A DNA stretch of 40,475 bases, taken from positions 1 to 40,475 of the forward strand of contig NZ_JACMOM010000383.1 of assembly GCF_014378035.1 (NCBI RefSeq). Direction: 5' to 3'. The notes under the pieces are model-generated. The model ran no database searches. It was not told the origin of the DNA and was given only the letters and a program-made list of their open reading frames with translations. Origin of the DNA: Aeromicrobium sp. (GTDB lineage Bacteria > Actinomycetota > Actinomycetes > Propionibacteriales > Nocardioidaceae). Positions 5,218-39,083 of this stretch are shown one piece after another (the stretch's first letter is position 1; each line of letters opens with the position of its first letter). The translations under genes were made by a program, and so were the position numbers.

Positions 5218-5897
5218 CCACGGAAATGGACAAGGCAGCCGCCGCGGTCGAGTCGCACCTGGACGAGGTCTACGGCTACATCGCCTCGTTGCACTCGCTG
5301 GTGGAGCAACTGGTGCCGGACAGTGGCGCGACTCTGTCGAGTGATCGGCTGAAGGGTCTGGACACCGTCGTCTTGAGCATGGTGTCGGCGATCCCCTGGG
5401 TCGGCGGCGGCGGGTTCGTCGCAGCGCTCGACGTGGTCGACCGTGACCACCGCTTCTGGGAGTGGTGGACGCGCGCGGATGCCCAGGCGTCCGTGAGACG
5501 GTTGCACCCGCCGCGGAGCTCCACCGGGGGTGCCGAGTACGCCTACGAGTCGATGCAGTGGTTCCGCGAGGGCGAGCGAGGCATGCGCACCGTCTTCGGC
5601 CCCTTCGTCGACTTCGCCGGTGTGAACCAGCTCGTCATCCTCTGCACGGAGCCGGTGATCGTCGACGGCCGCTTCCTCGGCGTCGCGGGTGCAGACCTCG
5701 TCGTGGATGGATTCGAGATCCAGATGGTCCGACTGCTGCGGGAGCTGCCGGGGCGGTCGGTGCTGGTGGGAGCCACGGGACGGGTCATCGCCTCGACGGT
5801 GGCCACGCTCGCGCCGGGGGAGCGATTCGATGCCGAAGGTTGGGAGTCGTTCGGGGTGGATCTCGGACGTGCCGGCTGGACGCTCTGCACGCAGTAG
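5214..5897 (+). CDS. Soluble Cache-domain protein coupled to a GntR regulator
   Basis: The 227-aa product has no signal peptide or membrane segment. Residues about 60-195 resemble a Cache small-molecule sensor domain: ESMQWFREGERGMRTVFGPF, then a strand-rich VILCTEPVIVDGRFLGVAGA-DL segment, then SVLVGATGRVIAST. Cache domains normally sit outside the membrane in chemoreceptors and kinases, so a free cytoplasmic one suggests a ligand-sensing or buffering accessory protein. The start codon overlaps the stop of the GntR gene (ATGA at 5214-5217), implying coupled expression, and the gene ends 6 bp before the end of the convergent PucR gene. The function is unknown; direct partnership with either regulator is inference. 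Confidence 0.7.
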   Translation: MTTEMDKAAAAVESHLDEVYGYIASLHSLVEQLVPDSGATLSSDRLKGLDTVVLSMVSAIPWVGGGGFVAALDVVDRDHRFWEWWTRADAQASVRRLHPPRSSTGGAEYAYESMQWFREGERGMRTVFGPFVDFAGVNQLVILCTEPVIVDGRFLGVAGADLVVDGFEIQMVRLLRELPGRSVLVGATGRVIASTVATLAPGERFDAEGWESFGVDLGRAGWTLCTQ

Positions 5898-5903
5898 AAC
5901 GCT

Positions 5904-7364
5904 TCACGCCAGGCCGTTCTCGCGGAGGTACAGCCATGTCCTGGCGGTGATGTCCGGATCTTCCAGGTCCGCGCCCAGGAGTCTGCGGATCGTGCCCAGG
6001 CGATGGCGCACGGTGTTGCGATGCACCCCGACATCTCGCGACGTGGCGTCCCACTGCCCCCGGTTCCGCAGGTAGGCCACCAGCGTCTCGCCGAGATCGA
6101 CTCGACGGTAGTCGAGAACACGATGGATGCCGTCCCTCAGGCTGGCCTCGTCCGATGAGTGTTCGCGGGGAGACTCAACCATGCCGTCGGGCAACGAGGC
6201 CACACGATCGAACAGCCCGACGCGAACCTGGTGGATCGACGACGGCGCGACGATGTCGGAGAGCACTGCGGTGGTGCGTGGGTCGACCGCGAGCAGGAGG
6301 GCTGACAGCCGATCGACCGGGGGATGGGTCTCGGGGATCAGGAACCACAGACGTTCGCCGTCGGACGGTCCCGGCATCGTCGCGGGCATCCATATGTGGA
6401 CGGCCTCGGTGGTGTCGGCGGGCCGTGCGGTTCGGACCACCAAGACCCTTGACGAGTCGCCGAGCGCCGGGAGGCCCACCCGCGCGGCGAGTCGTCTGGC
6501 CGGTTCGACGAAACCCATGTCGATCAGGGCCGTGACGGCCTGCCTCTGCGACTGTTCGGCTGCGTCGGCGCGTTGTCGCTGCACCGAGTCAAGGCTGAGA
6601 AGAGCTCCGGCGGTCAGCGCGAGTCGTCTGGCCGTTGGACCAAGTGGCGTTGCGGACCCGATCGCGATGTACCCGACGACGCGATCCTCCAATGGCAGCG
6701 GGAACACCGCGACGACGTCGTCGCCAGACGGGAAAGTCGCCGAGGAGTGCATCCCGGAGACACGTAGCGCTGAGATCTGGTCGGCGACGCCCAGAGCATC
6801 TGCGACGCGGCCGCTGGGGAAGACGTGCTCGACCGCGCCGACCGGGTCAAGCCGGGCCACCCAGGCGCCAGTTGCCCGCGACAAAGCTTTGAGCGTCGCC
6901 CCGACCGGGTCGCGGGACACCATCGCATCGACCAGGGACCGGTGTGCCGTGATGGCGTCGGTCAGCTCGCGCTCGGTGGAGCGCGAACGTGAGGCCCAGT
7001 AGGCCTTGCTGATGGTCAGGAACGCGGCTGCCGGTGGCACGGCGAGCAGGCAGAGGTCGTGCTTGGCACACGCGGCGGCCAGCGCGTCGGGTATCGCCGA
7101 CAGTGACGGCCCGAGCCCGACGCCGAGCGCGCTGAGTCCGGCGCTGCTGAGGCGGGACACGTAGCGCACGCAGCCGATCTCGTTGTCCGGGAGCGACAGT
7201 CCCGTGGTCAGGAGCAGCTCTCCACCGGACAGGTAGTCGGTGGGATCGGTCAGCTCGCTGACGTGGACCGCGGAGACTTCGAGGTCGGGTGCAGTGAATC
7301 CTTCGGCAGGTGCCAGCGCGCCCGGCAGCGAAGCGCACAGCTCGGCAACGGTGGGAAGACTCAC
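5904..7364 (-). CDS. PucR-family transcriptional regulator
   Basis: The 486-aa protein has the PucR layout. The N-terminal purine-catabolism-regulator-like domain (about 5-125) contains LSGGELLLTTGLSLPDNE. A central GAF-like segment follows, and the C-terminal PucR helix-turn-helix (about 430-485) contains GQWDATSRDVGVHRNTVRHR. PucR proteins usually activate or repress a neighbouring amine, purine or amino-acid catabolic operon; here the divergent 5-aminovalerate/glutarate-type operon at 7479 is the obvious target. The start is GTG at 7364 with no Shine-Dalgarno sequence. A TAGATT (TAnnnT) hexamer lies 6 bp upstream, compatible with a leaderless transcript. Confidence 0.92.
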   Translation of the reverse strand: MSLPTVAELCASLPGALAPAEGFTAPDLEVSAVHVSELTDPTDYLSGGELLLTTGLSLPDNEIGCVRYVSRLSSAGLSALGVGLGPSLSAIPDALAAACAKHDLCLLAVPPAAAFLTISKAYWASRSRSTERELTDAITAHRSLVDAMVSRDPVGATLKALSRATGAWVARLDPVGAVEHVFPSGRVADALGVADQISALRVSGMHSSATFPSGDDVVAVFPLPLEDRVVGYIAIGSATPLGPTARRLALTAGALLSLDSVQRQRADAAEQSQRQAVTALIDMGFVEPARRLAARVGLPALGDSSRVLVVRTARPADTTEAVHIWMPATMPGPSDGERLWFLIPETHPPVDRLSALLLAVDPRTTAVLSDIVAPSSIHQVRVGLFDRVASLPDGMVESPREHSSDEASLRDGIHRVLDYRRVDLGETLVAYLRNRGQWDATSRDVGVHRNTVRHRLGTIRRLLGADLEDPDITARTWLYLRENGLA

Positions 7365-24124: not shown

Positions 24125-25045
24125 TCAACTCGGGCATGGGCCCCCTACTTCAATTTCCCTCACGGTAGACCTGGCAGAGGCGTGCGGCAAGGGGCAATCT
24201 TCGCGCCCTTCAGTCGTACCGACATACACGCCGCTTTCGACTGCCGGTGCGGGGTGGACCGCATGGTCGGCTCGACGCTCCGGGCAGTCGGCAAGCGCGC
24301 GAAGCGAGGCCTCCGTCACCGCCCCCTCGACCAAGGGCACGGGCTTGCCCGAAATCTGGTGGGCGGTGGGCCCAAAGCTGTCGAGGACGGCATCGGCGGC
24401 ACTGAGGTCGTCATTCTCGGTGTAGGGATTTGTCACGACGAGGCAGGGCAGCTGGGCCGCTTGCGCCGCCCGCAGGCCGTTCTCGGAGTCCTCCACCGCG
24501 ACGACACCGGCCGGTTGCAGGCCCGCCTCGCGCATGACTGTGAGGTAGACCTGTGGCTCTGGTTTGAGTGCGTGCACTTCGGTGCCGGTGACGAGGAGCT
24601 CGAAGACGCCGGTGCCGAAATGGTGAGTCACCAGCGGCTCGACCCAGTCCCTGCTCCCGGTCGTGGCGACGAACAGCCGGACTCCGTCGTCGTGCAGACT
24701 CTCGACCAGCTGCCGAACACCGGGCCGCAGCTGGATCGCACCCTCGTGGACCATCCGGGTGAAGATCCGCGTCTTCGCCTTGTGAAGCTCGATGGCGAGA
24801 CCGGCCGCCTGCTCGCCGGCGTAGCCCCTTGACTCGAGATGGGCCCGGAGGCGTTGACGGCCCCCCGTCACGGTGAGGAGCCTTCCGTATACGTCCACGC
24901 CCCAGTGGTCGGGAAGTCCGAAATCGGCGAATGCCTGGTTGAAGGCGACGCGATGGCCGTCACGCTCGCTGTCGACCAGAGTCCCGTCGACATCGAAGAT
25001 GACCGCGCTCAACGTGGCCAAGGCCACGCGACCGCGGGTGGGCAT
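24125..25045 (-). CDS. cbbY: CbbY-type HAD phosphatase (xylulose-1,5-bisphosphate phosphatase) with C-terminal extension
   Basis: CbbY removes xylulose-1,5-bisphosphate, a misfire product that blocks RuBisCO. The core (about 10-245 of 306 aa) has the HAD motifs IFDVDGTLVDSERDGHR, ATTGSRDWVEP, LKPEPQVYLTVM and VAVEDSENGLRAA, with the CbbY-like cap after the first motif. Family members are about 230-255 aa. Here some 50 further residues follow, rich in Pro, Glu and Arg and without family similarity, so the stop may have been lost or the tail is lineage-specific. The ATG overlaps the glpX stop (TGATG at 25043-25047), placing it firmly in the CBB operon. Confidence 0.88.
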   Translation of the reverse strand: MPTRGRVALATLSAVIFDVDGTLVDSERDGHRVAFNQAFADFGLPDHWGVDVYGRLLTVTGGRQRLRAHLESRGYAGEQAAGLAIELHKAKTRIFTRMVHEGAIQLRPGVRQLVESLHDDGVRLFVATTGSRDWVEPLVTHHFGTGVFELLVTGTEVHALKPEPQVYLTVMREAGLQPAGVVAVEDSENGLRAAQAAQLPCLVVTNPYTENDDLSAADAVLDSFGPTAHQISGKPVPLVEGAVTEASLRALADCPERRADHAVHPAPAVESGVYVGTTEGREDCPLPHASARSTVREIEVGGPCPS

Positions 25046-26046
25046 CAGGTGTTCCGGTCGAAGTCCACGGCCGAGTACTCGCCGAGAAGCGCGGGCCGGT
25101 GGCGTGACTCGACCGTGCGGATCGTCCCGGACTTCGCCCGCATGACAACGGTCGAGGTGAGGATCGCACCGTGCTCGTAGCGCACCCCCCGCACCAGCTC
25201 ACCGTCAGTGATGCCGGTTGCGCTGAAGTAGGCCTCATCGCCCTTCACCAGGTCGGAGGTGGTGAGTACGCGAGACAGGTCGTGGCCGGCGTCATGGGCA
25301 CGGGAGCGCTCGAGGTCGGACGAAGCGCGGAGTCGTCCCTGGATCTCACCGCCCATGCACTTCATGGCGGCAGCGGCAATGATGCCCTCCGGGGTGCCGC
25401 CGATCCCGATCAGCAGGTCGACGCCCGTCCCCGGCAGACCCGTCATCACCGCTCCGGCCACGTCACCGTCAGACACGAAGCGGATGCGAGCGCCTGCCGC
25501 TCGTACCTGTCGCGCGAGATCGACATGGCGCGGCCTGTCCAGGATCACGACGGTGACATCGGCCACCTTGAGCCCCTTGGCCTTGGCGACGACCCGAATG
25601 TTCTCCTCGACGGGGGCGTTGATGTCGATGACACCCGCGGCCTCCGGCCCCGTGGCGATCTTGTCCATGTAGAACACTGCCGAGGGATCGAACATCGTGT
25701 GCCGCGGCGCCACGGCTATGACGGCCACGGCGTTGGGCTGCCCGTTTGCCATCAGGGTCGTGCCGTCGATGGGGTCGACTGCGACATCGCACGCGACCCC
25801 TCCGCCGTTGCCGACCGTCTCACCGTTGAACAACATGGGCGCCTTGTCCTTCTCGCCCTCACCGATCACGACGACCCCTGACATGGAAACGGTGCTGATG
25901 AGGGCACGCATCGCGTCGACTGCGGCCTGGTCGCCGCCGTTCTTGTCGCCTCGGCCGACCCAGCGAGCTGCTGCCATGGCGGCGCCTTCGGTGACTCGGA
26001 CCAGCTCGAGGGCAAGGTTGCGGTCTGGTCTTTCGCGTTCGGGCAT
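25045..26046 (-). CDS. glpX: Class II fructose-1,6-/sedoheptulose-1,7-bisphosphatase
   Basis: The 333-aa GlpX-type phosphatase hydrolyses fructose-1,6-bisphosphate and, in CBB operons, probably also sedoheptulose-1,7-bisphosphate. Motifs include [54 protein letters not shown] (metal and substrate site), [20 protein letters not shown] and [29 protein letters not shown] motif precedes the ATG at 26046. It follows the phosphoribulokinase gene after 126 bp and overlaps cbbY. Confidence 0.95.
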
Positions 26047-26112
26047 GGGTGACTTCTTTCGGTAGATGTCGATCCGGCTCGTGAGCCGAAGTTGAGCACG
26101 TCCCCGGGCGGC

Positions 26113-26141
26113 CCTGCATCCACCCGCTGGGTGGTCGCAGG
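26113..26141 (-). other. Intercistronic hairpin between phosphoribulokinase and glpX
   Basis: Arms CCACCC (26120-26125) and GGGTGG (26129-26134) close a 3-nt loop. Beyond a 2x2 internal loop, CCTGC (26113-26117) pairs with GCAGG (26137-26141). It sits in the only sizeable gap of the CBB operon and may be a partial terminator or an mRNA processing or stability element. Confidence 0.5.
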
Positions 26142-26172
26142 GGTGACCGGGTCGCCAGCGACCTGATCGCGG

Positions 26173-27135
26173 TCAGGCCGCCCGCCGCTGGTTGGCGCGC
26201 ACCTGCAAGAGGTGATAGAGCAGAATCAGCTGCGTGAGGGCCAGGGGTTCGCTTCGCGTCCCCGGGCTGATCTCGCCGATGTGGTCAGGTGGCGCGCCGC
26301 CGTCGGTACCGAGCTCCGTCCAGATCGCCTTCTCCAAGAGCTGGGCTTCCTCCGCGGAGGCGTGCCCGTGCACGAGAAGGCAGTCGGTCGGGGTCCCGTC
26401 CCGGTCACGGATGATCTTCAGATGCATGGCGCTCGTGTGATCATCGTTCAGCACCGAGTCCAGTGCTGGGTGTTGGATCGTTGGGCGAAGCATCAGCTCG
26501 GCCGACAGGGGTGATCCGGGCGGATCCTCGCGGCCCGGGACAGGAGCGAATCGGATCACGATGTCGGCGAAACGGCGCTGCGGACGGATGAACAGCGCCG
26601 ACTCGGGTTCGCGCCGTTCGAGGTCGGCGGTGACCTGTTCGGGCGTGTATCCCCGCTTGCCGCAGTCCCGGTCAACCTTCCACTTGTGCCGGATCTCTTC
26701 AGGCGGGTCGAGGAAGACCGTCACGTCGAAGCACGCCCTGGTCAGCTTCGTTGCCAACGGGTGCAAGCCCTCCACGATGACGAACTCTTTCGGCTCGACG
26801 TACTCGGGTCGGGTGAACGTGCCGGTCGCGTGGTCGTACACCGGCTTGAGGATCGGGCGTCCGAGTGCCAGGAGCTGCAGGTGCTGCTCCACGATGTCGA
26901 TGTAGTTGCAGTCTGGGTGCAACGGGGTGAAGGGCAGCTTCTTGCGCTCTGCACGATCGAACTTGTGGTAATCGTCGACGCAGATCGAGAGGCAGCGGTC
27001 CTCACCGATCGCCTCGGTCAACCCTTTCGTCAACGTGGTCTTGCCGGAAGCGGAGTCACCGGCGATGGCAAGCATGACCGGTCTCGACGAGCCATCGGCC
27101 TGCGAACGTGCGATCTGGATGATCTTCTCTGGCAT
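26173..27135 (-). CDS. cbbP: Phosphoribulokinase
   Basis: The enzyme phosphorylates ribulose-5-phosphate with ATP to make the RuBisCO substrate. The 320-aa protein has the P-loop AIAGDSASGKTTLTKG at about 23-38, CVDDYHKFDRAERKK with the catalytic Asp, LHPDCNYIDIVEQHL, PVYDHATGTFTRPEY and VIVEGLHPLAT, all typical of phosphoribulokinases. Its ATG overlaps the transketolase stop (TGATG at 27133-27137). With RuBisCO at 33999 it defines a working CBB pathway. Confidence 0.96.
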   Translation of the reverse strand: MPEKIIQIARSQADGSSRPVMLAIAGDSASGKTTLTKGLTEAIGEDRCLSICVDDYHKFDRAERKKLPFTPLHPDCNYIDIVEQHLQLLALGRPILKPVYDHATGTFTRPEYVEPKEFVIVEGLHPLATKLTRACFDVTVFLDPPEEIRHKWKVDRDCGKRGYTPEQVTADLERREPESALFIRPQRRFADIVIRFAPVPGREDPPGSPLSAELMLRPTIQHPALDSVLNDDHTSAMHLKIIRDRDGTPTDCLLVHGHASAEEAQLLEKAIWTELGTDGGAPPDHIGEISPGTRSEPLALTQLILLYHLLQVRANQRRAA

Positions 27136-29180
27136 CAGGAGTTCCCTTCGGTTGGGTGTTGATCGTTGTCATGAGGCGCTGAGTGGTGCGCGTTCGCGGC
27201 CGCCACAGCCCGCCGGACGATGTTGTCTGCACTCATGCCGAAGTGGGCGAGGACCTCGTCGCCGGGACCGGACGCGCCGAACTCGTCGATACCGATGGCG
27301 TTGGTGCCGGTGAGGCCCTGCCAGCCGAGCGTGGTCCCGGCTTCGACGGACATGACGACCGGTGCCCGGCCGAATACTCCGCTGTTCTCGGCGAAGCGTT
27401 CTCGCCACGGTGCCGAGATCACGCGGGTGACCAGCCCCCGCGCGTGCAACGCCACCGCTGCTTCCACGGCAAGGTGGACCTCCGAGCCGGTGGCGATGAT
27501 GTCGATGTCGGGCTGCTCGGCTTGCCTCACCACGCGGGCGCCCGTGGAGGTGAGGAAGTCCGGTTCGGTGCCGTCGGCGGATTCCAGGGAGGGAAGCGTC
27601 TGCCGGCTGAGGATGAGCACGCTCGGTCCGCTGGTGTGCCTGAGCGCGGCTCGCCACGCGGCGATGGTCTCGTGGTCGTCGGCAGGTCGGAAGACGCGCA
27701 CGCCCGGGATCAGCCGAAGTGACTCGATGTGCTCGACCGGTTGGTGCGTCGGGCCGTCCTCACCGACAGCGACCGAGTCGTGGGTCAGGATGTACACGAC
27801 CGGTTGCCTCATCAATGCGGACAGTCGCAGCGCGGGACGAAGGTAGTCGCTGAAGACCAGGAAGGTGCTCCCGTATGGACGGAAACCGCCATGCAGGGAC
27901 AGCCCGTTGAGCACCGCGGCCATCGCGAACTCGCGGATACCGAAATGAATCACGGAGCCGGCAAAGTCCAGTGCCGAGACGGCATCCTGCCCGGTCACGG
28001 TGCCGGTCGACCCGGCGAGGTCAGCCGAGCCGCCGATGAGCTCAGGCATCTGCGCGGCGACCGCCGCGAGAACCGCTTGGGACGTCTGCCGGGTCGCGCG
28101 GTCGATGCCGGTCTCGATGCCGTCGAGAATCTCCTCAAGATGCTCGGGGAGCTCCCGGTCCTGGGCGCGAACCCATTCGGCGCAACGCACGGGGCTGGCG
28201 TGCTCGAAAGTGTCATACCGCCGCGTCCACGCGGCCTGTTGCCGCGCACCGGCCATCGCGAGCTCGGCGCACCGTTCGCGCACCTCCGCCGGGACAACGA
28301 AACGCTGGTCTCCCCATCCGGCGTTCTTCTTGGCCGCGCGGAGAACCGTGGCGCCCAAGGGTGCTCCGTGCGCCTTCGACGTGCCCTCGATCCCGGGTGC
28401 CCCGTGGCCGATGACCGTACGGATCGCAATGAAGCTCGGCCGCTCTGCGGCTTTTGCGGCCGTGAGGGCGGCATCGATCGCGTCGACGTCGGTCCCGTCG
28501 TCGACCCTCGCGACGTGCCAGCCGTAGGCAGCAAAGCGCATCAGCTGGTCGTCGCTGCATGACTGGCCGGCTGGCCCGTCGATCGTGATGTCGTTGTCGT
28601 CGAACAGCACGATCAGACGGCCCAGACCAAGATGCCCGGCAAGTGAGGCGGCCTCGTGGCTGACACCTTCCATGAGGCAGCCGTCCCCGACGATCGCGTA
28701 GGTGTGGTGACCGGTGATCTCGGGGTAGCGGGCAGCATTCATGCGTTCGCCCAGAGCCATTCCCACCGCGGTCGCCAGCCCCTGTCCGAGCGGGCCCGTG
28801 GTCGTCTCGACGCCGTCGGTGTGGCCGAGCTCGGGGTGACCGGGCGTGGCGGATCCGAGCTGGCGGAAACGCCGCAGCTCCGACAGCGGCAGGCCGTAGC
28901 CGAACAGATGGAGCAGCGCGTACTGGAGAGCGGACCCGTGGCCGGCCGACAGGACGAATCGGTCGCGGTCTGCCCAGGCGGAGTCGGCTGGATTGTGGGC
29001 AAGGTGTCGGCTGAACAGCGTCCAGGCCATGGGGGCTGCGCCCATCGGCATACCGGCGTGCCCGCTGTTGGCCTCCTCGACCATGTCGGCGGCGAGAAAG
29101 CGGATCGTGTCGATCGCGAGCTGGTCGATGGCGCCGGAACGCGGCGTGGTCTTGTGGGTGTCGGGGGTCGTGATCGTCAT
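27135..29180 (-). CDS. tkt: Transketolase
   Basis: The enzyme moves two-carbon units between sugar phosphates with thiamine diphosphate, regenerating pentose phosphates for carbon fixation. The 681-aa protein is full length, with [38 protein letters not shown], the cofactor motif [19 protein letters not shown] ending in [27 protein letters not shown], the pyrimidine-domain [18 protein letters not shown] and [19 protein letters not shown]. The ATG at 29180 lies 1 bp after the rpe stop; an upstream in-frame start would overlap rpe and lacks similarity. It is part of the CBB operon. Confidence 0.96.
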
Positions 29181-29181
29181 G

Positions 29182-29880
29182 TCAGGCAGCCGTTTCGTCG
29201 TGGTGGGTCTGGGCCCAGGCCGCGCGACTTCGCAGCTCGTGGACTCCAGCGGTCTTGCCTGCGGCCCAGCCATAGAGCCAGCTGCCGGAGATGAAGACGT
29301 CGGCGCCCGCGGCGGCCGCGCCGACGATCGTGCGGTCGGTGATCCCTCCGTCGACCTCGAGCTCGATCGAGTACCCCGATTCGTCGATCATGGTGCGAAT
29401 CTCGGCGATCTTCGCCTCGACCGTCGGGATATAGGTCTGACCGCCGAACCCGGGGTTCACCGTCATCGCCAGGATGAGGTCGGTCTCGGACAGGACGTGC
29501 GCTGCGGCGGAGGCAGGAGTGTGCGGGTTGAGGGCAACGCCGGCGCGCGCGCCGAGCTCGCGGATCCGACCCAAGGTCCGATGCAGGTGCGGGCAGGCCT
29601 CGGCGTGGACGATGACGACCTCGCAGCCTGCGTCGATGTAGCGGTGCAGCAGCCTGTCGGGATTGGCAACCATGAGGTGGGCCTCGAAGCCCACCGTCGA
29701 GTGCTCGCCAGCGGCCGCGATGACGTCCGGGCCGAAGGTCAGGTTCGGCACGAAGACGCCGTCCATGACGTCCCACTGGATGCGGTCGACGCCGGCCTCG
29801 CAGAGGTGTTCGACTTCGGTCCCGAGCTGGCTGAAGTCGGCGGCAAGTATGGAGGGGACGATGAGGTTCTTCTGTCGCAT
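29182..29880 (-). CDS. rpe: Ribulose-phosphate 3-epimerase
   Basis: The enzyme interconverts xylulose-5-phosphate and ribulose-5-phosphate. The 232-aa TIM-barrel protein shows [37 protein letters not shown] with metal-site and catalytic residues, [26 protein letters not shown] and [12 protein letters not shown]. The ATG at 29880 is chosen because similarity begins at once ([12 protein letters not shown]); the longer frame to 30006 is unlike the family. It is the first gene of the minus-strand CBB operon and probably carries its main promoter upstream. Confidence 0.96.
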
Positions 29881-29896
29881 GGTGATCCAGCCCTTC

Positions 29897-29910
29897 GTGA
29901 ATTGATTCAC
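29897..29910. promoter_or_regulatory. Perfect palindrome GTGAAT-TG-ATTCAC upstream of rpe
   Basis: This 14-bp palindrome starts 17 bp upstream of the rpe start codon. A degenerate second copy (ATTCAC at 29941-29946 facing GTGGAAT at 29955-29961) lies about 36 bp further out. ATTCAC also occurs in the cbbR/cbbL spacer at 33921-33926. It is a candidate CbbR or other CBB operator; binding is inferred. Confidence 0.45.
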
Positions 29911-30075
29911 ACAAGAACACCGCAACGGCGGTGCGGGCGTATTCACCCCGGTGGGTGGAATGGGTGATGACGTGGCCGGGCTCGGATACCCGAGGACGCA
30001 ACCCACACCGACGAGCGACCGTGAGGGTCATCCGCCATCGAGGACACCATTGACAAGCCCACCTACTCTGTTGAC

Positions 30076-30735
30076 GTGATGAAGCAGGTAGTCCGGGTTG
30101 TCCTGGCCGATGACCACGAGATGGTGCTTCAGGGCGTCACGGCGATGTTGTCGCAATTCCCCGAGGACGTCGAGGTCCTCGGGATGGCGACGAACCAGCT
30201 GGAGGCGCTTGAGCTGACGGCGAGACTCGACCCCGATGTGCTGCTGTGTGACATCAGGCTCGGGAAGGACAGCGGCCTCGATCTGTGTCAGCAGGCGAAA
30301 GCGGCCAATCCCGCACTCCACGTCGTCTTCCTCACCGTCTACGACGACGAGCAGTACCTGTATCAGGCGCTGAGGGTCGACGCCTCCGGCTACATCCTCA
30401 AACGCATCGACGCGGTCGAGCTTGTGGGGCACCTGCGCCGGGTGACGACCGGTGAAGTGGTGATCGATCCGTCATTGGCAGGACGCATAGCGATGTCGGC
30501 GGCTCGCATCAATGCGGGCGAGTTCTGGCCCGGTGCTCACCTGGGGCTCACCCAACGCGAGTCTGAGGTGCTCGCCTTGCTCGTCTCAAGTCACTCGAAC
30601 AAGGGCATCGCCGCGAAGCTCATCGTCAGCGAAGACACCGTCAAGACTCATATCCGCGGCCTGTATCGCAAGCTCGGAGTGTCGGACCGGGGAAGTGCGA
30701 TCGCCGTGGCGTTGAGAGAAGGTCTCTATCAGTGA
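30076..30735 (+). CDS. NarL/LuxR-type response regulator
   Basis: The 219-aa protein has a receiver domain (about 1-122) with the acidic pair DDH, phospho-acceptor Asp in LLCDIRLG (about 59), FLTVYDD and YILKRIDA. A LuxR helix-turn-helix (about 155-215) contains LTQRESEVLALLVSSHSNKG and VSEDTVKTHIRGLYRKLGVS. The start is GTG at 30076, with an ATG immediately after at 30079. Its stop overlaps the histidine kinase start (GTGA at 30732-30735). It is divergent from the CBB operon, with a 195-bp shared upstream region, so CBB or hyp genes are plausible targets. Confidence 0.93.
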   Translation: MMKQVVRVVLADDHEMVLQGVTAMLSQFPEDVEVLGMATNQLEALELTARLDPDVLLCDIRLGKDSGLDLCQQAKAANPALHVVFLTVYDDEQYLYQALRVDASGYILKRIDAVELVGHLRRVTTGEVVIDPSLAGRIAMSAARINAGEFWPGAHLGLTQRESEVLALLVSSHSNKGIAAKLIVSEDTVKTHIRGLYRKLGVSDRGSAIAVALREGLYQ

Positions 30736-31907
30736 AGGACGTGTCCGCACTACATCGACTGCTGTTGGTCCCCGGTGAGCTGAATCTTCCGGCGGTGTCT
30801 CGATTTCTCACCGAGGCGCTTGACGCGGACGGATCGATCGTCTTCCTCATCGACCAGAACGAGAACGAGCTGAACGTCGGTGCGGTGCACCCGGCCGCCC
30901 ACGGTCTCGAGAAACAGTTGAAGATTCCGGTCGGATATGGAGTGACCGGGCTGGTGGCATCGAAAGGACATGCGGTCACGCTCGTCGACGATTCGCCCCG
31001 CAACAAGGTGCACCGGGCGCTGTTGGGCCTGCGGCCGGATCAGACGGTGTCCCGCATGTGCGCGCCTGCCCACGGGACGGCGTCCAGGATCGTGGGGGTG
31101 ATCTCGGTACACCGTCGCGGGTCGACCTCCTTCACCGAGGACGACCTGAAGAGAGCGCAGGTGTATGCCGATCTGATCGGTCTCCGGCTGTTCGCCGAGG
31201 GCCTGCTCGGCGACGTCGAGGAGCACCAGGCGCAGCGAAACCGGCTCATCGAGCAGGCATCATCGGCGCAGGAGGCCGAACGCCGACGCATTGCCGGCGA
31301 CCTCCACGACGGCGTCACCCAGGCGCGTGCTTCGCTCGCCTTCCACCTGTCCGCGGCCGATGTGGGCTTGGCGGCGACCGGACCTGCCGAACGCAGGATC
31401 GGTGATGCTCAGGTCCAGATCTCGGCCGCCCGCCGACTCGCCACCCTTGCGTATGACGAGACGCGCGCAGCGATTCGGGGCCTGCACAGCCTGATCCTGG
31501 AGGATCTGGGGTTGGTGTCGGCACTGGAGTCGCTGACCCAGGTCTCGCCCCAGCTCGACATCGAGTTTCGCACCGATCTGGACGAGATCTCCGACGTCCC
31601 CGACCACTGCGCTGCCGTGTTGTTCCGGATCGCACAGGAAGGCATCAACAACGTCGTCAAACACGCCGAGGCGGGGCATGCCGTGCTGTCCTTGCGCCGG
31701 GCAGGGGATGCAGTGGTCCTGGCGATCACCGATGACGGTGTGGGATTCGATCTGGCTTCAGCGCGGGCACAGCGAAGTGTGGATGCGCTCGGCGAGCACT
31801 TTGGCCTCTCGTCGGTCGCCGAGCGCTGCGCCCTGATCGGCGCATCCTTGCGCATCGACTCGGTCGCCGGCCGGGGTACCGCCGTCATCGTCGAGCTTCC
31901 GTTGTGA
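30732..31907 (+). CDS. GAF-domain sensor histidine kinase, NarX/DesK-like
   Basis: The 391-aa soluble kinase has an N-terminal GAF domain (about 10-155: KIPVGYGVTGLVASKGHAV, VGVISVHRRGSTSFTEDDL), a HisKA_3 dimerisation domain with phospho-acceptor His at about 192 (ERRRIAGDLHDGVTQARASL), and an ATPase domain (FRIAQEGINNVVKHAEAGH, ITDDGVGFD, GRGTAVIVELPL). It has no membrane segment, so it senses an internal signal; GAF domains bind cyclic nucleotides, haem, Fe-S clusters or small molecules. The GTG start at 30732 overlaps the response-regulator stop, marking a cognate pair. It ends 9 bp before the convergent aldolase gene. Confidence 0.93.
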   Translation: MKDVSALHRLLLVPGELNLPAVSRFLTEALDADGSIVFLIDQNENELNVGAVHPAAHGLEKQLKIPVGYGVTGLVASKGHAVTLVDDSPRNKVHRALLGLRPDQTVSRMCAPAHGTASRIVGVISVHRRGSTSFTEDDLKRAQVYADLIGLRLFAEGLLGDVEEHQAQRNRLIEQASSAQEAERRRIAGDLHDGVTQARASLAFHLSAADVGLAATGPAERRIGDAQVQISAARRLATLAYDETRAAIRGLHSLILEDLGLVSALESLTQVSPQLDIEFRTDLDEISDVPDHCAAVLFRIAQEGINNVVKHAEAGHAVLSLRRAGDAVVLAITDDGVGFDLASARAQRSVDALGEHFGLSSVAERCALIGASLRIDSVAGRGTAVIVELPL

Positions 31908-31916
31908 CAACCGGCC

Positions 31917-32915
31917 TCACCGGCGAACGAGCTCGGAGCTCTCGGCACGTGCCGCGGCGGCGTTCGCGCAATTGAGCAGAAGGGCATCCTGGGCAACCCG
32001 GATGTTGGCCTTCTGGCCTTGCCAGGCGTGCAAGGCGTCGTTGACCAGCGCCCTGCCGAAGGAGAACGTGAGGTGCCAGGGCGGTGTCGGGGCGACCGCG
32101 TTGCTTGCGAGGAGGTAGCGGCAAGCCTCGAGTGGCGCATGCCCGCCAGACAGGAAGGCGATGCCGGGAACATGATCAGGGACCGTGGCGCGCAGAACCG
32201 CGTTGGTGGCCGCAGCAACCTCGGCCGGGCTGGCCGCGGGAGCGTGGAGTCCCGGTGTGACCATGTTGGGTTTGAGCACGATACCGGCGAGGTCGACGCG
32301 CTGGCGATCGAGCTGGTCGAAGAGCATCGTCAACGCGCGCGAGGTGGTCTCGGCGCAGTCGCCGATGGTGTGGCCTCCTCCGCACAGGACCTCGGGCTCG
32401 ACGATCGGGACGATCCCGTGCTCCTGGCAGAGGGCTGCGTAGCGGGCAAGGGCGTGGGCGTTGGCCTCCAGCACCAGATCGGTTGCCGTGGCGATGTCGA
32501 TGGCGGCGCGCCACTTGGCGAAGGCGGCACCGGACGCCGCGTAGGTGGCGAGGCGGGCGCCAAGCCCGTCCAGGCCTTCGGTGACTGTCGCGCCGCCACC
32601 GCCGGGTAGGCGTGACGTCCCGGTATCCACCTTGATGCCCGGAAGGATGCCGCGGGCGCGGCATGCCTGCGGGAAGGGGGTGCCGTCGGCGAGCGAGTCG
32701 TTGAACGTCTCGTCGCACAGGATGATCCCGCTGATCGATGCCGCCAGGTCCGGCGCCGTGGGCAGCAGCTCACGATAGTCGCGTCGTGCGGTCGGGGACG
32801 CCGCTATGCCCTCGGCATTGAGCCGTATCGACATGGTCTTGACGCTTTCGTCGGCGGCGAGAATCCCTCGGCCAGATCCGACCAGGTGCGTCGCGACAGC
32901 GTGGAGCTCGTGCAT
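31917..32915 (-). CDS. fba: Class I fructose-bisphosphate aldolase
   Basis: The 332-aa Schiff-base aldolase joins dihydroxyacetone phosphate with glyceraldehyde-3-phosphate or erythrose-4-phosphate in the CBB cycle. All residues of the metazoan-type active site are visible: Asp22 (GRGILAADES), Lys95 (LPGIKVDTG), Lys134 (AFAKWRAA), Glu173 (PIVEPEVL), the Schiff-base Lys215 (IVLKPNMVTPG), Ser256 (AFLSGGHA) and Arg288 (SFGRALV). These match Asp33, Lys107, Lys146, Glu187, Lys229, Ser271 and Arg303 of rabbit aldolase. It starts 63 bp after the cbbR stop on the same strand, so the two are likely co-transcribed. A divergent, degenerate relative lies at 38157. Confidence 0.95.
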   Translation of the reverse strand: MHELHAVATHLVGSGRGILAADESVKTMSIRLNAEGIAASPTARRDYRELLPTAPDLAASISGIILCDETFNDSLADGTPFPQACRARGILPGIKVDTGTSRLPGGGGATVTEGLDGLGARLATYAASGAAFAKWRAAIDIATATDLVLEANAHALARYAALCQEHGIVPIVEPEVLCGGGHTIGDCAETTSRALTMLFDQLDRQRVDLAGIVLKPNMVTPGLHAPAASPAEVAAATNAVLRATVPDHVPGIAFLSGGHAPLEACRYLLASNAVAPTPPWHLTFSFGRALVNDALHAWQGQKANIRVAQDALLLNCANAAAARAESSELVRR

Positions 32916-32978: not shown

Positions 32979-33869
32979 TCACCCCACCGGGGGTTTGAGC
33001 AGGTGAAAGGCCGAGCTGCCCACCAGGGCAGAGTCAGTGATGTGGGCAAGGAACAGCGACGCCGAACCGGTCAGCAGATCCGTGGTCACGACATGCCATG
33101 GGCGGTCGAGGGGGGTGTGACGCAACGGGAACGTGGCGAGCAGTCCTCTGCTCAGGTCGTCCTCGACCGCGTCGGCATGCACCAGGGTCACGCCAAGTCC
33201 TTCACGGGCGGCCGCGACGACGGCGCCATGCGTGCCCAGGGTCAAGGTCGGCGGGGCCGCGTCGAGCTGTGCGAGCAGGCCAAGCGCCGTGTCGCGGGTC
33301 CCCGAGCCAGGACCCCGCAGGAGCCAGGTCGCCGCCAACGCATGATCGAAGCTGTCAGGAGCACCGACGACGATCAGCCTGTTGGCGCGCATCGCCCGCG
33401 TGGTCAGATTCGAGTCTGGGGGCGGTCGGCCGGCGATCACCAGATCGGTCTCGTGGTGGGTCTGGGCGTCGAACAGGTCGTCGCGAGGAAGGACCGTCAA
33501 GGTCAGCTCGATCTCAGGGTGACGGTCACGAAATGACGCCAGCAACGTCGGAAGGACAGATTCGCTGGCCGTGGCGACTGCACCGATGCGAAGCCGGCCG
33601 TGTCCAGCTGATCGGACCGCCTCGGAAGCCTGCTCGACCATGGCGACGATCGTCCGGCAGTATCCGGCGTAGATTCGGCCGCTCTCAGTCAGCCGGATCC
33701 CTCGTCCGTCGCGGACGAAGAGCTCGGCTGACAGGCTCTTCTCCATGTGAGAGATCGCGGCCGACACGGCCGATTCGGTGACATGCAGCGCCGCCGCCGC
33801 GTCACGGATGCTGTGGTGTTCGACCACGGCGAGGAACGTTCGCATTCGTCCCCAGGTCACCTGCGTCAT
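32979..33869 (-). CDS. cbbR: LysR-family regulator, probable CbbR
   Basis: The 296-aa protein has a LysR helix-turn-helix (about 8-65: SIRDAAAALHVTESAVSAAI, ELFVRDGRGIRLTESGR) and a periplasmic-binding-like effector domain (about 90-290). Its position, divergent from cbbL and upstream of the aldolase gene, is the classic arrangement of CbbR, which activates CBB operons in response to metabolites such as RuBP or NADPH. The ATG at 33869 is preferred over a TTG at 33893, because LysR similarity begins a few residues after it and the TTG would run into the operator-like repeats. Confidence 0.9.
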   Translation of the reverse strand: MTQVTWGRMRTFLAVVEHHSIRDAAAALHVTESAVSAAISHMEKSLSAELFVRDGRGIRLTESGRIYAGYCRTIVAMVEQASEAVRSAGHGRLRIGAVATASESVLPTLLASFRDRHPEIELTLTVLPRDDLFDAQTHHETDLVIAGRPPPDSNLTTRAMRANRLIVVGAPDSFDHALAATWLLRGPGSGTRDTALGLLAQLDAAPPTLTLGTHGAVVAAAREGLGVTLVHADAVEDDLSRGLLATFPLRHTPLDRPWHVVTTDLLTGSASLFLAHITDSALVGSSAFHLLKPPVG

Positions 33870-33880
33870 GCGTCGAAGTC

Positions 33881-35884
<2,004 letters not shown>

Positions 35885-35888
35885 AGCA

Positions 35889-36893
35889 GTGGCGAGCAAC
35901 CAACGACAAAAACCGTCCGGGTTCGGCTACTACCGTCCGGGTTCAGAAGAGTTCCGCACGACGCTGCCCAGCCAAGCGCCCGACGATGACCTCGATCCAG
36001 CGGAGATGATGTTGGCGGACGGCGATGTGCTCGATCTGTCGGCCGATGAGGTGACCAAGGAGGTCGACGAGCTGCTGACGACGCTGGATCATGAGCTGGT
36101 GGGGTTGACCAACGTGAAACGGCGGGTGCGCGAGATCGCCTCTCTCCTGCTGGTGGACCGCGCCCGTCAACAGTTCGGGCTCTCGTCCTCCAGGCCAACC
36201 TTGCACATGAGCTTCACCGGCGGGCCTGGGACGGGCAAGACCACAGTGGCGCAGCGGATGGCGCGCATGCTGCACGCCCTCGGTTACATCCGCACGCCGA
36301 AGGTTCACACCGTGACGCGCGATGACCTCGTCGGCCAGTTCATCGGTCACACGGCCCCCAAGACGAAGGAGGCGATCGCGAAGGCTGCCGGCGGAGTCCT
36401 GTTCATCGACGAGGCCTACTACCTGTTCAGACCGGAGAACGAACGGGACTACGGCCAGGAGGTCATCGAGATCCTGCTCCAGGAGATGGAGAGCGAGCGG
36501 GCGAACCTTGTCGTCATCTTTGCGGGATACCCCGATCGGATGGACACGTTCTTCTCGGCCAATCCTGGTCTGTCGTCGCGCGTCGCCCACCACATTGCCT
36601 TCGACGACTTCGACCATGCCGAGCTCGTGCAGATAGCAGATCTGATGGTGAGCGCAGAGAACTTCCGTTTCGCCGACGAGGCGCAGGAGGCCTTCTCGAC
36701 GTACCTGGAGCTCAGGATGCAACAACCACGCTTCTCGAACGCGCGGAGCGTCAGGAATGCCGTGGAGCGCTGCCGACTTCGACAGGCCAAGAGGCTGGTC
36801 GAGCTGAAACGCCCGCTGATCAGGGACGACCTCGTCACCCTGACATCCGAGGACGTCTTCGGGAGCAGCGTCTTCGACAAGGCGGCCCCCTAG
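35889..36893 (+). CDS. cbbX: CbbX, AAA+ activase of red-type RuBisCO, with long N-terminal extension
   Basis: CbbX hexamers use ATP to thread the CbbL C-terminus and release inhibitory sugar phosphates. The 334-aa protein has Walker A GGPGTGKTT (about 111-119), the pore loop DLVGQFIGHTAPKTK with Phe at the usual Tyr position, Walker B VLFIDEAYYLF (about 170-180), RPENERDYGQEVIEILLQ and sensor/arginine motifs in NPGLSSRVAHH. The GTG at 35889 is chosen because AAGGAG (35876-35881) lies 7 nt before it; an in-frame ATG at 35865 has no such site. Residues 1-45 or so extend beyond typical CbbX proteins and contain FGYYRPGSEEF. The gene starts 5 bp after the cbbS stop codon. Confidence 0.95.
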   Translation: MASNQRQKPSGFGYYRPGSEEFRTTLPSQAPDDDLDPAEMMLADGDVLDLSADEVTKEVDELLTTLDHELVGLTNVKRRVREIASLLLVDRARQQFGLSSSRPTLHMSFTGGPGTGKTTVAQRMARMLHALGYIRTPKVHTVTRDDLVGQFIGHTAPKTKEAIAKAAGGVLFIDEAYYLFRPENERDYGQEVIEILLQEMESERANLVVIFAGYPDRMDTFFSANPGLSSRVAHHIAFDDFDHAELVQIADLMVSAENFRFADEAQEAFSTYLELRMQQPRFSNARSVRNAVERCRLRQAKRLVELKRPLIRDDLVTLTSEDVFGSSVFDKAAP

Positions 36894-37021: not shown

Positions 37022-37861
37022 CTAGGCGACCGGCAGGTCGATCAGTCCGGGGTCGATCACGGCGCGAGCGCGTGCCGAGGCGGCGGCCGCCGACACGATC
37101 ATCGTCGCATCCTGGACGCCGCCAGGAACCTCAACCGCTCCGCTGTCGGGGCCATCGCGGTGTGCCATCAACCAGTCGTAGAGCAGCCAGTCAATCGCAC
37201 ACGACGCGGCGACGCGGTCTGCGTCAGGACTGTCGCTGCCGACAGTCGTCGAAATGAGCAGCTCCCGATGTTCCTTCAGTGACGCGTCCTTGTTGACCCC
37301 GGAACTGTCGAACATGAGCATGGAAAGAGTGGCGGGCAGTCGACGACCGGTCTCCGTGCGAACAATCCACCGACCGCCCAGCCACGGTCGATCGACATCG
37401 ACTGTCTGGATGTCGCCGAATCCACTGATGACGCCCAGGTCGGGCTCGTCGAGCTGCCCCTCCAACGGCGCAGGGCCGAGAAGGCCGAGAGCCTGCCGCG
37501 CCCAGATGCTCATCAAGGCAGCGGTACCGATGATCTGACCGCCGCGCACCTCGGTCACCAGCCCGAGGCTGGTGAGGGCATCGGCGTACTCGTGGCACAG
37601 CCGATCGATGGCGCGATGCAGGGAGCGGAGTCCCTTTTCCTCCGCCCGGTCGGCCGGGGCTCGCCCGCCGCCGAGAATCTCACCGTAGGCCCCGGCGGCC
37701 TGGATCAGCGTGTCGTCGAGAGCCTCGAGGTGCGTCGGGAGGAGGCGATCGGGCTCGTCGTCGTTGGCGGCCAGCGCCGAGAGCGTGATGGGCTGGCCCG
37801 TGAGGTCAGCCCAATGAAAGCCCATCTGCGCGTCGGTCTGGACGATCATCGGTCGTGCCAT
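37022..37861 (-). CDS. Unrecognised conserved-looking protein beside the CBB cluster
   Basis: I do not recognise this 279-aa protein. It has no signal peptide, membrane segment or known motif, and only two cysteines. The N-terminal half is mostly helical and rich in Ala and Leu (RLLPTHLEALDDTLIQAAGA, KGLRSLHRAIDRLCHEYADA). The middle is strand-like (DIQTVDVDRPWLGGRWIVRT), and the end is Ala-rich. The ATG at 37861 has a good ribosome-binding site (CGAGGTGACAG), and base and codon use match its neighbours, so it is a real gene. It converges on cbbX and is divergent from the aldolase-like pseudoenzyme at 38157, sharing a 295-bp promoter spacer with it. A role linked to carbon fixation is inference from position. 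Confidence 0.7.
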   Translation of the reverse strand: MARPMIVQTDAQMGFHWADLTGQPITLSALAANDDEPDRLLPTHLEALDDTLIQAAGAYGEILGGGRAPADRAEEKGLRSLHRAIDRLCHEYADALTSLGLVTEVRGGQIIGTAALMSIWARQALGLLGPAPLEGQLDEPDLGVISGFGDIQTVDVDRPWLGGRWIVRTETGRRLPATLSMLMFDSSGVNKDASLKEHRELLISTTVGSDSPDADRVAASCAIDWLLYDWLMAHRDGPDSGAVEVPGGVQDATMIVSAAAASARARAVIDPGLIDLPVA

Positions 37862-38156
37862 CTGTCACCTCGGTTGGTCTGGTCGGATTCGCCACCCTAC
37901 GCGCGCTCTGGAAGTCGGTGCTCTCACGGCATGGATTCGAGCCCGCATCGCTTGAACAGCGGATGAGGGGACGACCGACGAGAACAGCGGCGACCACGTT
38001 CGGTCCGAGCAGCGGACATCTGCGCCGCGACAAGGCTCTCGGCAACACCGGGTGCAAGACCTCGACTCACCCGGCAGTCCATCCCTAAGGGTGGTGACCG
38101 ACGATCGTCGTCCTGGCTAGCGTCGGTGCTCCACAGAGCCTTCAGGGAGCAGAATC
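37862..38156. promoter_or_regulatory. Divergent promoter spacer with palindrome CGACGATCGTCG
   Basis: This 295-bp spacer separates the divergent unknown gene and the aldolase-like gene. A perfect 12-bp palindrome lies at 38099-38110, followed by a TAGCGT -10-like hexamer at 38118-38123 and AGGGAG at 38144-38149 before the GTG at 38157. No ORF or RNA gene was recognised in it. Confidence 0.45.
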
Positions 38157-39083
38157 GTGAACACTATGGCGAGCAAGGCAGCGTCCTTCATGGCTCACGA
38201 CCGAGGGGTGCTGGTTCTCGACGACTACGCCCATGCTGCCGTCACGGCGCCGCCGTGGCCGGGGCTCAGCTTCGATCGCTATACCGAATTGGTCCTGCAG
38301 TCGACCGGCTTGTCACCATTTCTGTCGGCTGTCATCGTCTCGCCGGACACCGTGCTCGACGGTGCACCCCACTTGCACGGTGTCGAGGTCGGAGTACGCA
38401 TACGTCTGCCGGGCGGGCGGACCACCGGCGATCTGCGCCGCCGCCTCGCCGCCATGGCCTCCCGCAAGGTGAAGCTCGCCGAGTGGCGAGCGAACCTGCC
38501 GGTCGGGAGGGTGCCCCGCGGGGGGGTCCACATCGCGGCGGCGCAGCTGGCGGCGGGCGCTGCGGCATCGCTGGCGGAAGGCGTCACGCCGATTCTCACG
38601 GTGGCGATGCCTGACCTGGAGTCGCACAGCCAGGGTGTGACCCACGCCGCGACAGCCAACGCGCTGATGGCGCTTTCAGCCGCACTGGTCAACGCCGATG
38701 TCGATACGTCCGCGGTGCTGCTGAGGGTCAACATGATCATCTCGGGCTCGACGAACCGCACACAGCCACCACCCTTCGAGGTCGCCCAATCGACATTGGC
38801 CGTTCTCGGTGAGTCGATCGCTGACGACTTCGGCGGTGTCCTCTTCTTGTCGAGCGGGCAGAGCCTTGATCAAGCGTGCAGGAACTTGCTGGCAATCGCT
38901 GACCTGGCACACCAGCAATCGTCCCCGTGGCCGATCACCTTCGGATTCACCAGGGCAGTGGTCGATGAATCACTGGACGTCTCCGAGGTCAGGAACGAAC
39001 AGCTCGTCCACGATGCCCTGGTGCGTGCCTGCGACCGAGCGTCCCAGTCAGCGTCCGGCTCCACCGTCGGTGCCGCCGTCTGA
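38157..39083 (+). CDS. Degenerate class I aldolase homologue, probable pseudoenzyme
   Basis: The 308-aa protein aligns over most of its length with the class I aldolase at 31917-32915: DRGVLVLDDY with GRGILAADES, GVEVGVRIRLPGG with GIKVDTGTSRLPGG, KLAEWRA with AFAKWRA, VTPILTVAM with IVPIVEPEV, VLLRVNMIISG with IVLKPNMVTPG, GVLFLSSGQSLDQACRNLLA with GIAFLSGGHAPLEACRYLLA, and ITFGFTRAVVDESL with LTFSFGRALVNDAL. Yet the active site is gone. Lys107, Lys146, Glu187 and Schiff-base Lys229 of rabbit aldolase correspond to Glu77, Glu109, Thr148 and Arg190 here; Asp22, Ser232 and Arg266 remain. The frame is open, with a GTG start and ribosome-binding site (AGGGAG), so it looks like a maintained non-catalytic protein rather than a decayed gene. 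A regulatory, scaffolding or substrate-sensing role is conjecture. Confidence 0.75.
   Translation: MNTMASKAASFMAHDRGVLVLDDYAHAAVTAPPWPGLSFDRYTELVLQSTGLSPFLSAVIVSPDTVLDGAPHLHGVEVGVRIRLPGGRTTGDLRRRLAAMASRKVKLAEWRANLPVGRVPRGGVHIAAAQLAAGAAASLAEGVTPILTVAMPDLESHSQGVTHAATANALMALSAALVNADVDTSAVLLRVNMIISGSTNRTQPPPFEVAQSTLAVLGESIADDFGGVLFLSSGQSLDQACRNLLAIADLAHQQSSPWPITFGFTRAVVDESLDVSEVRNEQLVHDALVRACDRASQSASGSTVGAAV

Follow-up and report, generated by a model that had tools for sequence, protein, structure and literature searches.

Beside the CBB genes of an Aeromicrobium sp. lies an open reading frame whose product belongs to the class I FBP aldolase family and lacks the residues by which such an enzyme works. 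Is it a duplicate in decay, or has it been kept for another job? The initial annotation argued for the latter, a non-catalytic job under selection. The window (the whole stretch of DNA analysed, 40,475 nt) is the entire contig C254 of a 400-contig assembly with 7% contamination. Contamination as the origin of the window was considered and rejected; the tetranucleotide profile of its two halves fits the sampled rest of the assembly (0.85 and 0.82, with five contigs of the same assembly scoring 0.77-0.86 in this comparison), and the window was therefore kept as host DNA. To our knowledge, Calvin-cycle regulation in chemolithoautotrophic actinobacteria has been little studied; CO2 fixation in Pseudonocardia was reportedly treated by Grostern and Alvarez-Cohen in 2013.

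The gene runs from 38157 to 39083 on the forward strand and encodes 308 aa from a GTG start, with AGGGAG, a likely ribosome-binding site (38144..38149, forward strand), 7 nt upstream; an open frame with such a site had been claimed, and both are present. Preceding it in the window are a canonical class I FBP aldolase with all catalytic residues (31917..32915, reverse strand; 346 bits to PF00274 and 405 bits to the NCBIfam model, cut-off 250) and a LysR-type, CbbR-like regulator (32979..33893, reverse strand, from Pfam/NCBIfam search). On the forward strand follow cbbL, the RuBisCO large subunit (33906..35456, by domain search), a probable cbbS reaching to about 35881 (inferred from the conserved ORF 35006-35881) and a gene for a CbbX-like AAA protein (35499..36893; Pfam AAA, named by eye and by context, its true start probably further in). 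The rest of the CBB cluster, at 24125..31907, holds a HAD phosphatase (cbbZ-like), fbp, prk, tkt, rpe, a response regulator and a GAF histidine kinase; the phosphatase, regulator and kinase were named through Pfam and fbp, prk, tkt and rpe by eye. The gene in question lies downstream of cbbX and is divergent from its neighbour nb279 (37022..37861, reverse strand), which encodes a conserved 279-aa protein.

The ORF encodes a real class I aldolase homologue. Its product, called here the Q protein, aligns with the canonical aldolase of the window (BLASTP 2e-20, 31% over 252 aa), and the profile search recommended for it gave a PF00274 match well over the curated cut-off (77.1 vs 22.2 bits, 1.4e-21), which is membership at the level of the family. 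Against the NCBIfam FBA equivalog (NF033379) it scores 101.9 bits, below the cut-off of 250. For a global alignment the end-to-end description is fair, but BLASTP matches locally from residue 42 and Pfam from residue 92, and gaps in the global alignment leave the protein 25 residues short of the canonical copy between beta1 and beta4.

Catalytic and substrate sites are given in rabbit numbering, with K146, E187, E189 and K229 onward placed by alignment to 1fba and other sites by MAFFT alignments. In aldolase S35, K107, R148, S271 and R303 are phosphate ligands. Located by the 1fba alignment, the Schiff-base lysine K229 is R190 in the Q protein (codon AGG, 38724..38726, forward strand) and the catalytic E187 is T148, both as first described. 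The companion statement, that two other essential lysines had become Glu, stands for K146 (E109) and fails for K107; as the latter aligns with R81, one essential lysine turned into Glu, not two. Retention of Asp33 (D22) and of the Ser and Arg that hold substrate phosphate (S271 as S232, R303 as R266) was correctly recognised, and to these sites can be added E189, now A150, S35, now Y24, and R148, retained as R111. At the enzyme level the protein is without the Schiff-base lysine K229 and also without K146, E187 and E189. These residues fall in short motifs on the forward strand: DDYA (residues 22-25, 38220..38231; D33 kept, S35 to Tyr, with D22, Y24 and A25 invariant in 6/6 members of the family described next), EWR (residues 109-111, 38481..38489; E109 for K146, R111 for R148) and TVAMP (residues 148-152, 38598..38612; T148 for E187, A150 for E189, and P152). 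PRGGVH (residues 120-125, 38514..38531, forward strand) lies in the beta4-alpha4 loop, its strand and helix limits taken from the structure model below, with P120, G122 and H125 invariant in 6/6, of which only P120 is specific to the family; His occupies the H125 column in 6/38 canonical rows.

When 391 genomes from the order of the window genome were searched with PF00274, five more degenerate copies came to light, in G583 and G595 (one genus) and in G851, G748 and G742 (another genus, belonging to the family of the window genome); to judge from their gene relatives, these genomes are presumably actinobacterial. The five score 84-158 bits against the window protein (28-40% identity), and each shares a contig with a canonical aldolase copy, as the window gene does. 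Orthologues with the same substitutions had been proposed as a check, and K229R, K146E, S35Y and E189A are indeed common to all six members of this Q family (6/6 each), as is retention of D33, R148, S271 and R303. K107 is replaced by Arg in five and by His in one orthologue, E187 by Thr in five and Ser in one, and the G272 position varies (S in 2, G in 2, A in 2). By comparison, 38/38 canonical rows (37 different) keep all eleven scored sites, including K107, K146, E187, E189 and K229. A lysine stands at the aligned Schiff-base site in 0/6 Q rows. The six rows share 39 invariant columns, none of them lysine, which makes a displaced, family-wide Schiff-base lysine unlikely.

These counts bear on the idea that the Q protein is still an active class I aldolase using another residue. 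PMC9499490 sets out the roles of D33, K146, E187 and K229 and reports about half activity for a krill aldolase K230D mutant, a residual activity that would favour this idea and is at odds with K229 being indispensable. Nevertheless, with no invariant lysine anywhere in the Q family, and with K146, E187, E189 and S35 gone too, an active aldolase of this kind is very improbable. Pseudoenzymes are defined, in PMC10211241, by conserved catalytic motifs missing from the sequence, and by the residue table the Q protein is one.

The family is rare, with six genomes seen. A profile of its six members (A4) detected no further member in 394 genomes of the class, in 147 genomes of the G851 genus or in 38 of the G583 genus, with 5 candidates scored per genome in the class surveys (protein and A4), 15 in the G851 genus and at most 60 in the G583 genus. 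With the window Q protein as query, 13/394 class genomes gave a match, one of them its own; 11 of the other 12 score at least 250 bits against the window's canonical aldolase (one split over two frames), and the twelfth, a short 20-bit fragment, stood outside that comparison. The same query matched two of 58 relatives (its own genome and one canonical copy), found no gene in the other genomes of the window's own genus (0/36) and returned no relative in a first contig scan. A plasmid search produced 8 records, none above 35% identity; FBP aldolase is the annotation in six, and the others carry no annotated feature. In G843, a 72-aa piece ended by the contig edge lies beside FBPase and PRK genes and scores 43 bits against canonical aldolase and 28 and 19 bits against Q. 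Fragments in G221 (20 bits) and G065 (26 bits) and second copies in G512 and G526 (288-294 bits) were left out of classification. PF00274 matches of ~20-47 bits (profile positions ~10-214) were not counted as relatives; the five that were translated and read by eye (L115-L119) show lysine motifs of the other class I type, and the remaining ones were set aside by analogy.

Three CBB-bearing genomes in the order sample (G045, G779 and G794) have no intact Q copy, from which it follows that the CBB cycle does not require the gene; in G045 and G779 the PF00274 search matched a canonical aldolase only. The G045 stretch (L295, G045:C1:2090001-2108000) holds cbbX, rpe, HAD, canonical aldolase and lysR genes, with no cbbL detected in it. 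Eight Antrihabitans and Nocardia genomes with cbbL loci (L019-L025 and L028) gave no PF00274 match at E 0.001, and the window's closest RuBisCO relatives therefore probably use another aldolase type.

Degenerate PF00274 homologues of a second kind occur in a genus group identified through Pseudonocardia sp. N23, where 11 of the 62 genomes surveyed carry a type A, a type B or one of three intermediate (M) copies. All scored rows, from ten of the 11 genomes, are without K229 and K146; the eleventh, G511, has a broken frame and was kept out of scoring, and a twelfth low-scoring genome, G520, gave no match to any aldolase query used. Across the 19 A/B/M rows, K229 and K146 are lost in 19 (one gap counted as lost), K107 is Arg in 19, D33 is kept in 18 and R303 in 16. 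Type A (7 rows) has S/C for K229, V for K146 and R for E187; type B (9 rows) has G (8) or A (1) for K229, and R for K146 in 6. Types A and B co-occur in seven of these genomes. They are like Q in their PF00274 match, in lacking K229 and K146, in the change of K107 to Arg and in mostly adjoining CBB genes, but differ from it in forming separate clades and in their replacement residues. In 8/11 genomes prk, tkt or other CBB genes share a stretch with at least one degenerate copy; no CBB genes were seen in the stretch around the copy in G483, G502 and G511, and in G483 nb279 and hyp genes stand beside the degenerate pair. A/B pairs adjoining prk/tkt or hyp genes are found at L093:2441-3478(+), L158, L159, L164, L165, L157, L166 and L163; in L158 carbamate-kinase-like and AmiS/UreI-like genes (named by eye) lie between the two. 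The M proteins (L160:7323-8489, L161:9840-11018 and L162:6832-7923) are likewise without K229 and K146.

Phylogeny (63 rows, LG+C20+F+G4) recovers Q as one clade (100/100). It is placed among the CBB-type canonical aldolases (93/99, the branch being below the tool's star level), nearest a Pseudonocardiales copy, L027 (89/83, also below star level), and not with the canonical copy of the window. The free tree sets Q apart from A, B and M, types A (100/100) and B (100/99) being clades elsewhere, but the AU test fails to reject a single clade of Q, A, B and M (p 0.25) or of Q, A and B alone (p 0.08); because the branches are long, we are unsure of a separate placement of Q from A, B and M. Neither the tree nor the residue table includes the frame-broken A-like L170 (from G511) or the short or divergent B-like L161 and L160, which do appear in a separate alignment.

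Decay of an aldolase duplicate, the simplest account of lost catalytic residues, was to be recognised by a dN/dS near 1, which is not what the six genes give. NG86 estimates are 0.21 (G748/G742) and 0.36 (G583/G595) for the two closest pairs and 0.39-0.83 for the remaining 13 pairs (dS 0.88-1.69); YN00 gives 0.26, a value from one of the 15 pairs. Under a codon model (6 sequences, 271 codons) the free model reaches lnL -4894.0 vs -5151.0 with omega = 1, a rejection by 257 log units, and each Q trio alone prefers the free model, by 152 and 88 log-likelihood units; canonical copies from the same genomes give -4641.6 free vs -5087.9 with omega = 1. The Q family, with copies in six genomes, is maintained by purifying selection, as a pseudoenzyme should be. 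Consistent with decay are the faster evolution of Q than of the canonical copy (G583/G595 identity 59 vs 77%, in a comparison where two of the three canonical pairs include an upstream frame extension), its absence from the other genomes of the window's genus, and a 109-aa frame with an aldolase N-terminus beside araC and nb279 in G794 (L306:6800-7126(+); 53 bits to canonical aldolase, no Q match). The last is probably the remnant of an aldolase at the spot that Q occupies in three related genomes, and since this truncated frame lies there, decay at the spot does happen. Against decay of Q itself stand the five orthologues with open frames and the same substitutions, the rejection of omega = 1, and a tree in which Q is not sister to the window's own canonical copy. 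For the Q family the orthologues already refute this account, and as a general explanation it is almost certainly wrong.

The CBB linkage pointed out for the window gene holds for the five orthologues as well, each on the same contig as a CBB cluster, and in 5/5 no more than about 5 kb separates Q from genes for FBPase, PRK and a HAD-IIA-type phosphatase. The canonical aldolase lies about 5 kb from the Q gene in the window and 24-35 kb away in the five others. In G851, G748 and G742 nb279 lies directly upstream of the Q gene and is read in the same direction, with 79-98 nt between the two by inferred starts; hyp genes and the CBB cluster occupy the same region. The G583 and G595 loci have FBPase, PRK and GAPDH genes divergent from Q and a GTGA overlap (2/2) between the Q stop and the likely GTG start of the HAD-IIA-type phosphatase gene; neighbour Pfam names in both loci come from G583 proteins. 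The overlapping phosphatase genes are at L235:4554-5573(+) and L238 about 5320-6359(+); G851, G748 and G742 have relatives near Q, and in L167 the end of a type B frame is overlapped by one such relative.

The neighbour nb279 has no Pfam or NCBIfam match, and a single-sequence structure model of it reaches pLDDT 37. Ten further genomes in the class sample encode it (>180 bits, 50-62% identical), and in all five of these that were inspected it is near hyp or CBB genes. As an obligate partner of Q it was rejected, since in those 10 class genomes no Q was found and in G583 and G595 it was not seen beside Q. A hydrogenase link was also set aside as not discriminating (HypD in 5/6 Q genomes vs 56/78 overall); for the A/B/M genomes the count is 7/11 vs 14/25 other tested genomes of that genus.

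Because its substitutions are shared, its members form one clade, omega = 1 is rejected and its genes are linked to those of the CBB cycle, Q is a conserved pseudoenzyme family and not a decaying duplicate. The non-catalytic job first proposed gains support here, in that fold model, orthologues without the Schiff-base lysine and dN/dS all agree. The particular jobs suggested for it, namely phosphosugar sensing, aldolase regulation and complex assembly, are candidates.

An AlphaFold2 model of the Q protein, made with a 17-row alignment of 14 canonical aldolases, 2 type B proteins and the query, has pLDDT 84.1, pTM 0.86 and eight strands in barrel order, and is weak at residues 26-30 and 302-308. 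Every one of the 50 PDB matches listed by Foldseek is a class I FBP aldolase (E 1e-18 to 4e-16; TM-score, normalised by query length, 0.78-0.85), so the aldolase TIM barrel that was to be checked is recovered, from an input alignment that is mostly canonical. From the places of K229 and K146 in aldolases, R190 and E109 are predicted to form a salt bridge in the former active site.

Nine of the invariants are family-specific (V20, Y24, A25, E109, P120, A150, P152, N168 and R190). Eight of these lie in barrel strands or the next 8 residues (108/308 positions; p 0.0012), and six fall within a stricter set of barrel positions (p 0.011). All 39 Q invariants together are not enriched on the catalytic side (18/39, p 0.086), whereas canonical near-invariant positions are (44/71, p 1e-7), so that a working ligand pocket can only be proposed. 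The bias of the specific residues toward the barrel would suit a neofunctionalised enzyme, in which the pocket was rebuilt for another sugar-phosphate reaction needing no Schiff base, e.g. isomerisation, epimerisation or dephosphorylation through D22, Y24, E109, H125, R190 and S232. The new polar residues Y24, E109, N168 and R190 are invariant in 6/6 and sit next to the kept D22, R111, S232 and R266, and the gene adjoins genes for enzymes of the same pathway, overlapping that of a phosphatase in two genomes. The Arg-Glu pair can, however, be merely structural, divergence outside the motifs is fast, and H125 is invariant without being specific to the family. We know of no CBB-cycle reaction that would need a new enzyme of the Q type, which also weighs against a new enzyme, and overall we think it somewhat unlikely.

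The pattern of lost chemistry and kept binding sites points to a different role, for which the following mechanism is offered. Q most likely arose as a duplicate of a CBB-linked aldolase. Its chemistry would then have been removed in a fixed way (K229 to R, K146 to E, E187 to T/S, E189 to A), the predicted R190-E109 salt bridge occupying the former active site, while anion sites would remain at both ends, R81 (at the K107 site, with His in one orthologue) and R111 (R148) at one and S232 (S271) and R266 (R303) at the other. In aldolase these substrate-pocket positions have anion-binding roles. The protein could then bind one of the cycle's sugar bisphosphates (FBP, SBP or RuBP) while forming no Schiff base and cleaving nothing, and the bound state may alter its contact with a CBB-cycle partner. 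Candidate partners are the canonical aldolase, the HAD phosphatase encoded by the overlapping gene of two genomes, and FBPase/PRK; if the bound state shifts such a contact, Q would act as a flux sensor or regulatory subunit. Since the chemistry was lost fixedly, the anion-site residues were kept and cycle genes are adjacent, a non-catalytic, sugar-bisphosphate-binding regulatory subunit for CBB enzymes, kept by selection, fits best; we hold it tentatively, at slightly less than an even chance. The similar loss in the 19 A/B/M rows, with K107 changed to Arg in all and R303 kept in 16, would support it. The loss in Q of S35, a phosphate-site serine, and the variable G272 position count against it, as do the faster divergence of Q, the three CBB-bearing genomes without an intact copy and the 40-kb window, where genes for a HAD-IIA phosphatase, a class I-type FBPase and a second PRK were not found (the window's own fbp, prk and HAD genes lie further up).

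The partner, if it is the canonical aldolase itself, might be met in another way, with Q (or A with B) serving as a structural subunit of a hetero-oligomer that tunes stability or allostery, the pocket being irrelevant. Class I aldolases are oligomeric, with a tetramer given for eukaryotic FBA in PMC9499490; a canonical copy is on the same contig in 6/6 Q genomes, and A and B occur together as noted. A scaffold, on the other hand, needs no fixed, identical substitutions at former catalytic positions, and this arrangement appears unlikely.

Among known proteins, class I FBP aldolase (PF00274, NF033379) shares with Q the fold, the family sequence, the D33/R148/S271/R303 positions and the CBB context, and differs in that K229, K146, E187 and E189 are replaced in Q in fixed ways and in the equivalog score (102/250 bits). 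LacD.1 of Streptococcus pyogenes is described, in PMC5126071, as an aldolase-like protein to which the regulator Rgg is bound and by which it is restrained. Like Q as proposed here, it is an aldolase-family duplicate serving regulation and not carbohydrate use, an analogy of working only; unlike Q it is annotated as a tagatose-bisphosphate aldolase and has another organism and target. The FBP aldolase of Francisella acts, according to PMC5636795, as a transcriptional regulator, and so ties an aldolase to a regulatory role such as is proposed for Q, but is a metabolic enzyme with an added role and not a paralogue without catalytic residues. In the titles and abstract openings of the matches listed, no published description of the Q family or of a CBB-linked aldolase pseudoenzyme was found, in line with the initial annotation, which knew of none.

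Automatic annotation can hide such pseudoenzymes because the proteins still match the class I aldolase family. A conserved aldolase without catalytic residues among the genes of the cycle is a candidate metabolite sensor or regulatory subunit, and its clean, fixed substitutions make binding, trapping and reversion tests simple. Similar losses in a second group (types A and B) suggest a wider pattern, and paralogues of the Q, A, B and M kinds possibly arose more than once in actinobacterial autotrophs. That they form a set of non-catalytic paralogues which bind cycle bisphosphates and gate CO2 fixation through CBB enzymes is conceivable and, on balance, doubtful; if true, Calvin-cycle control would have a previously undescribed layer made of pseudoenzymes.
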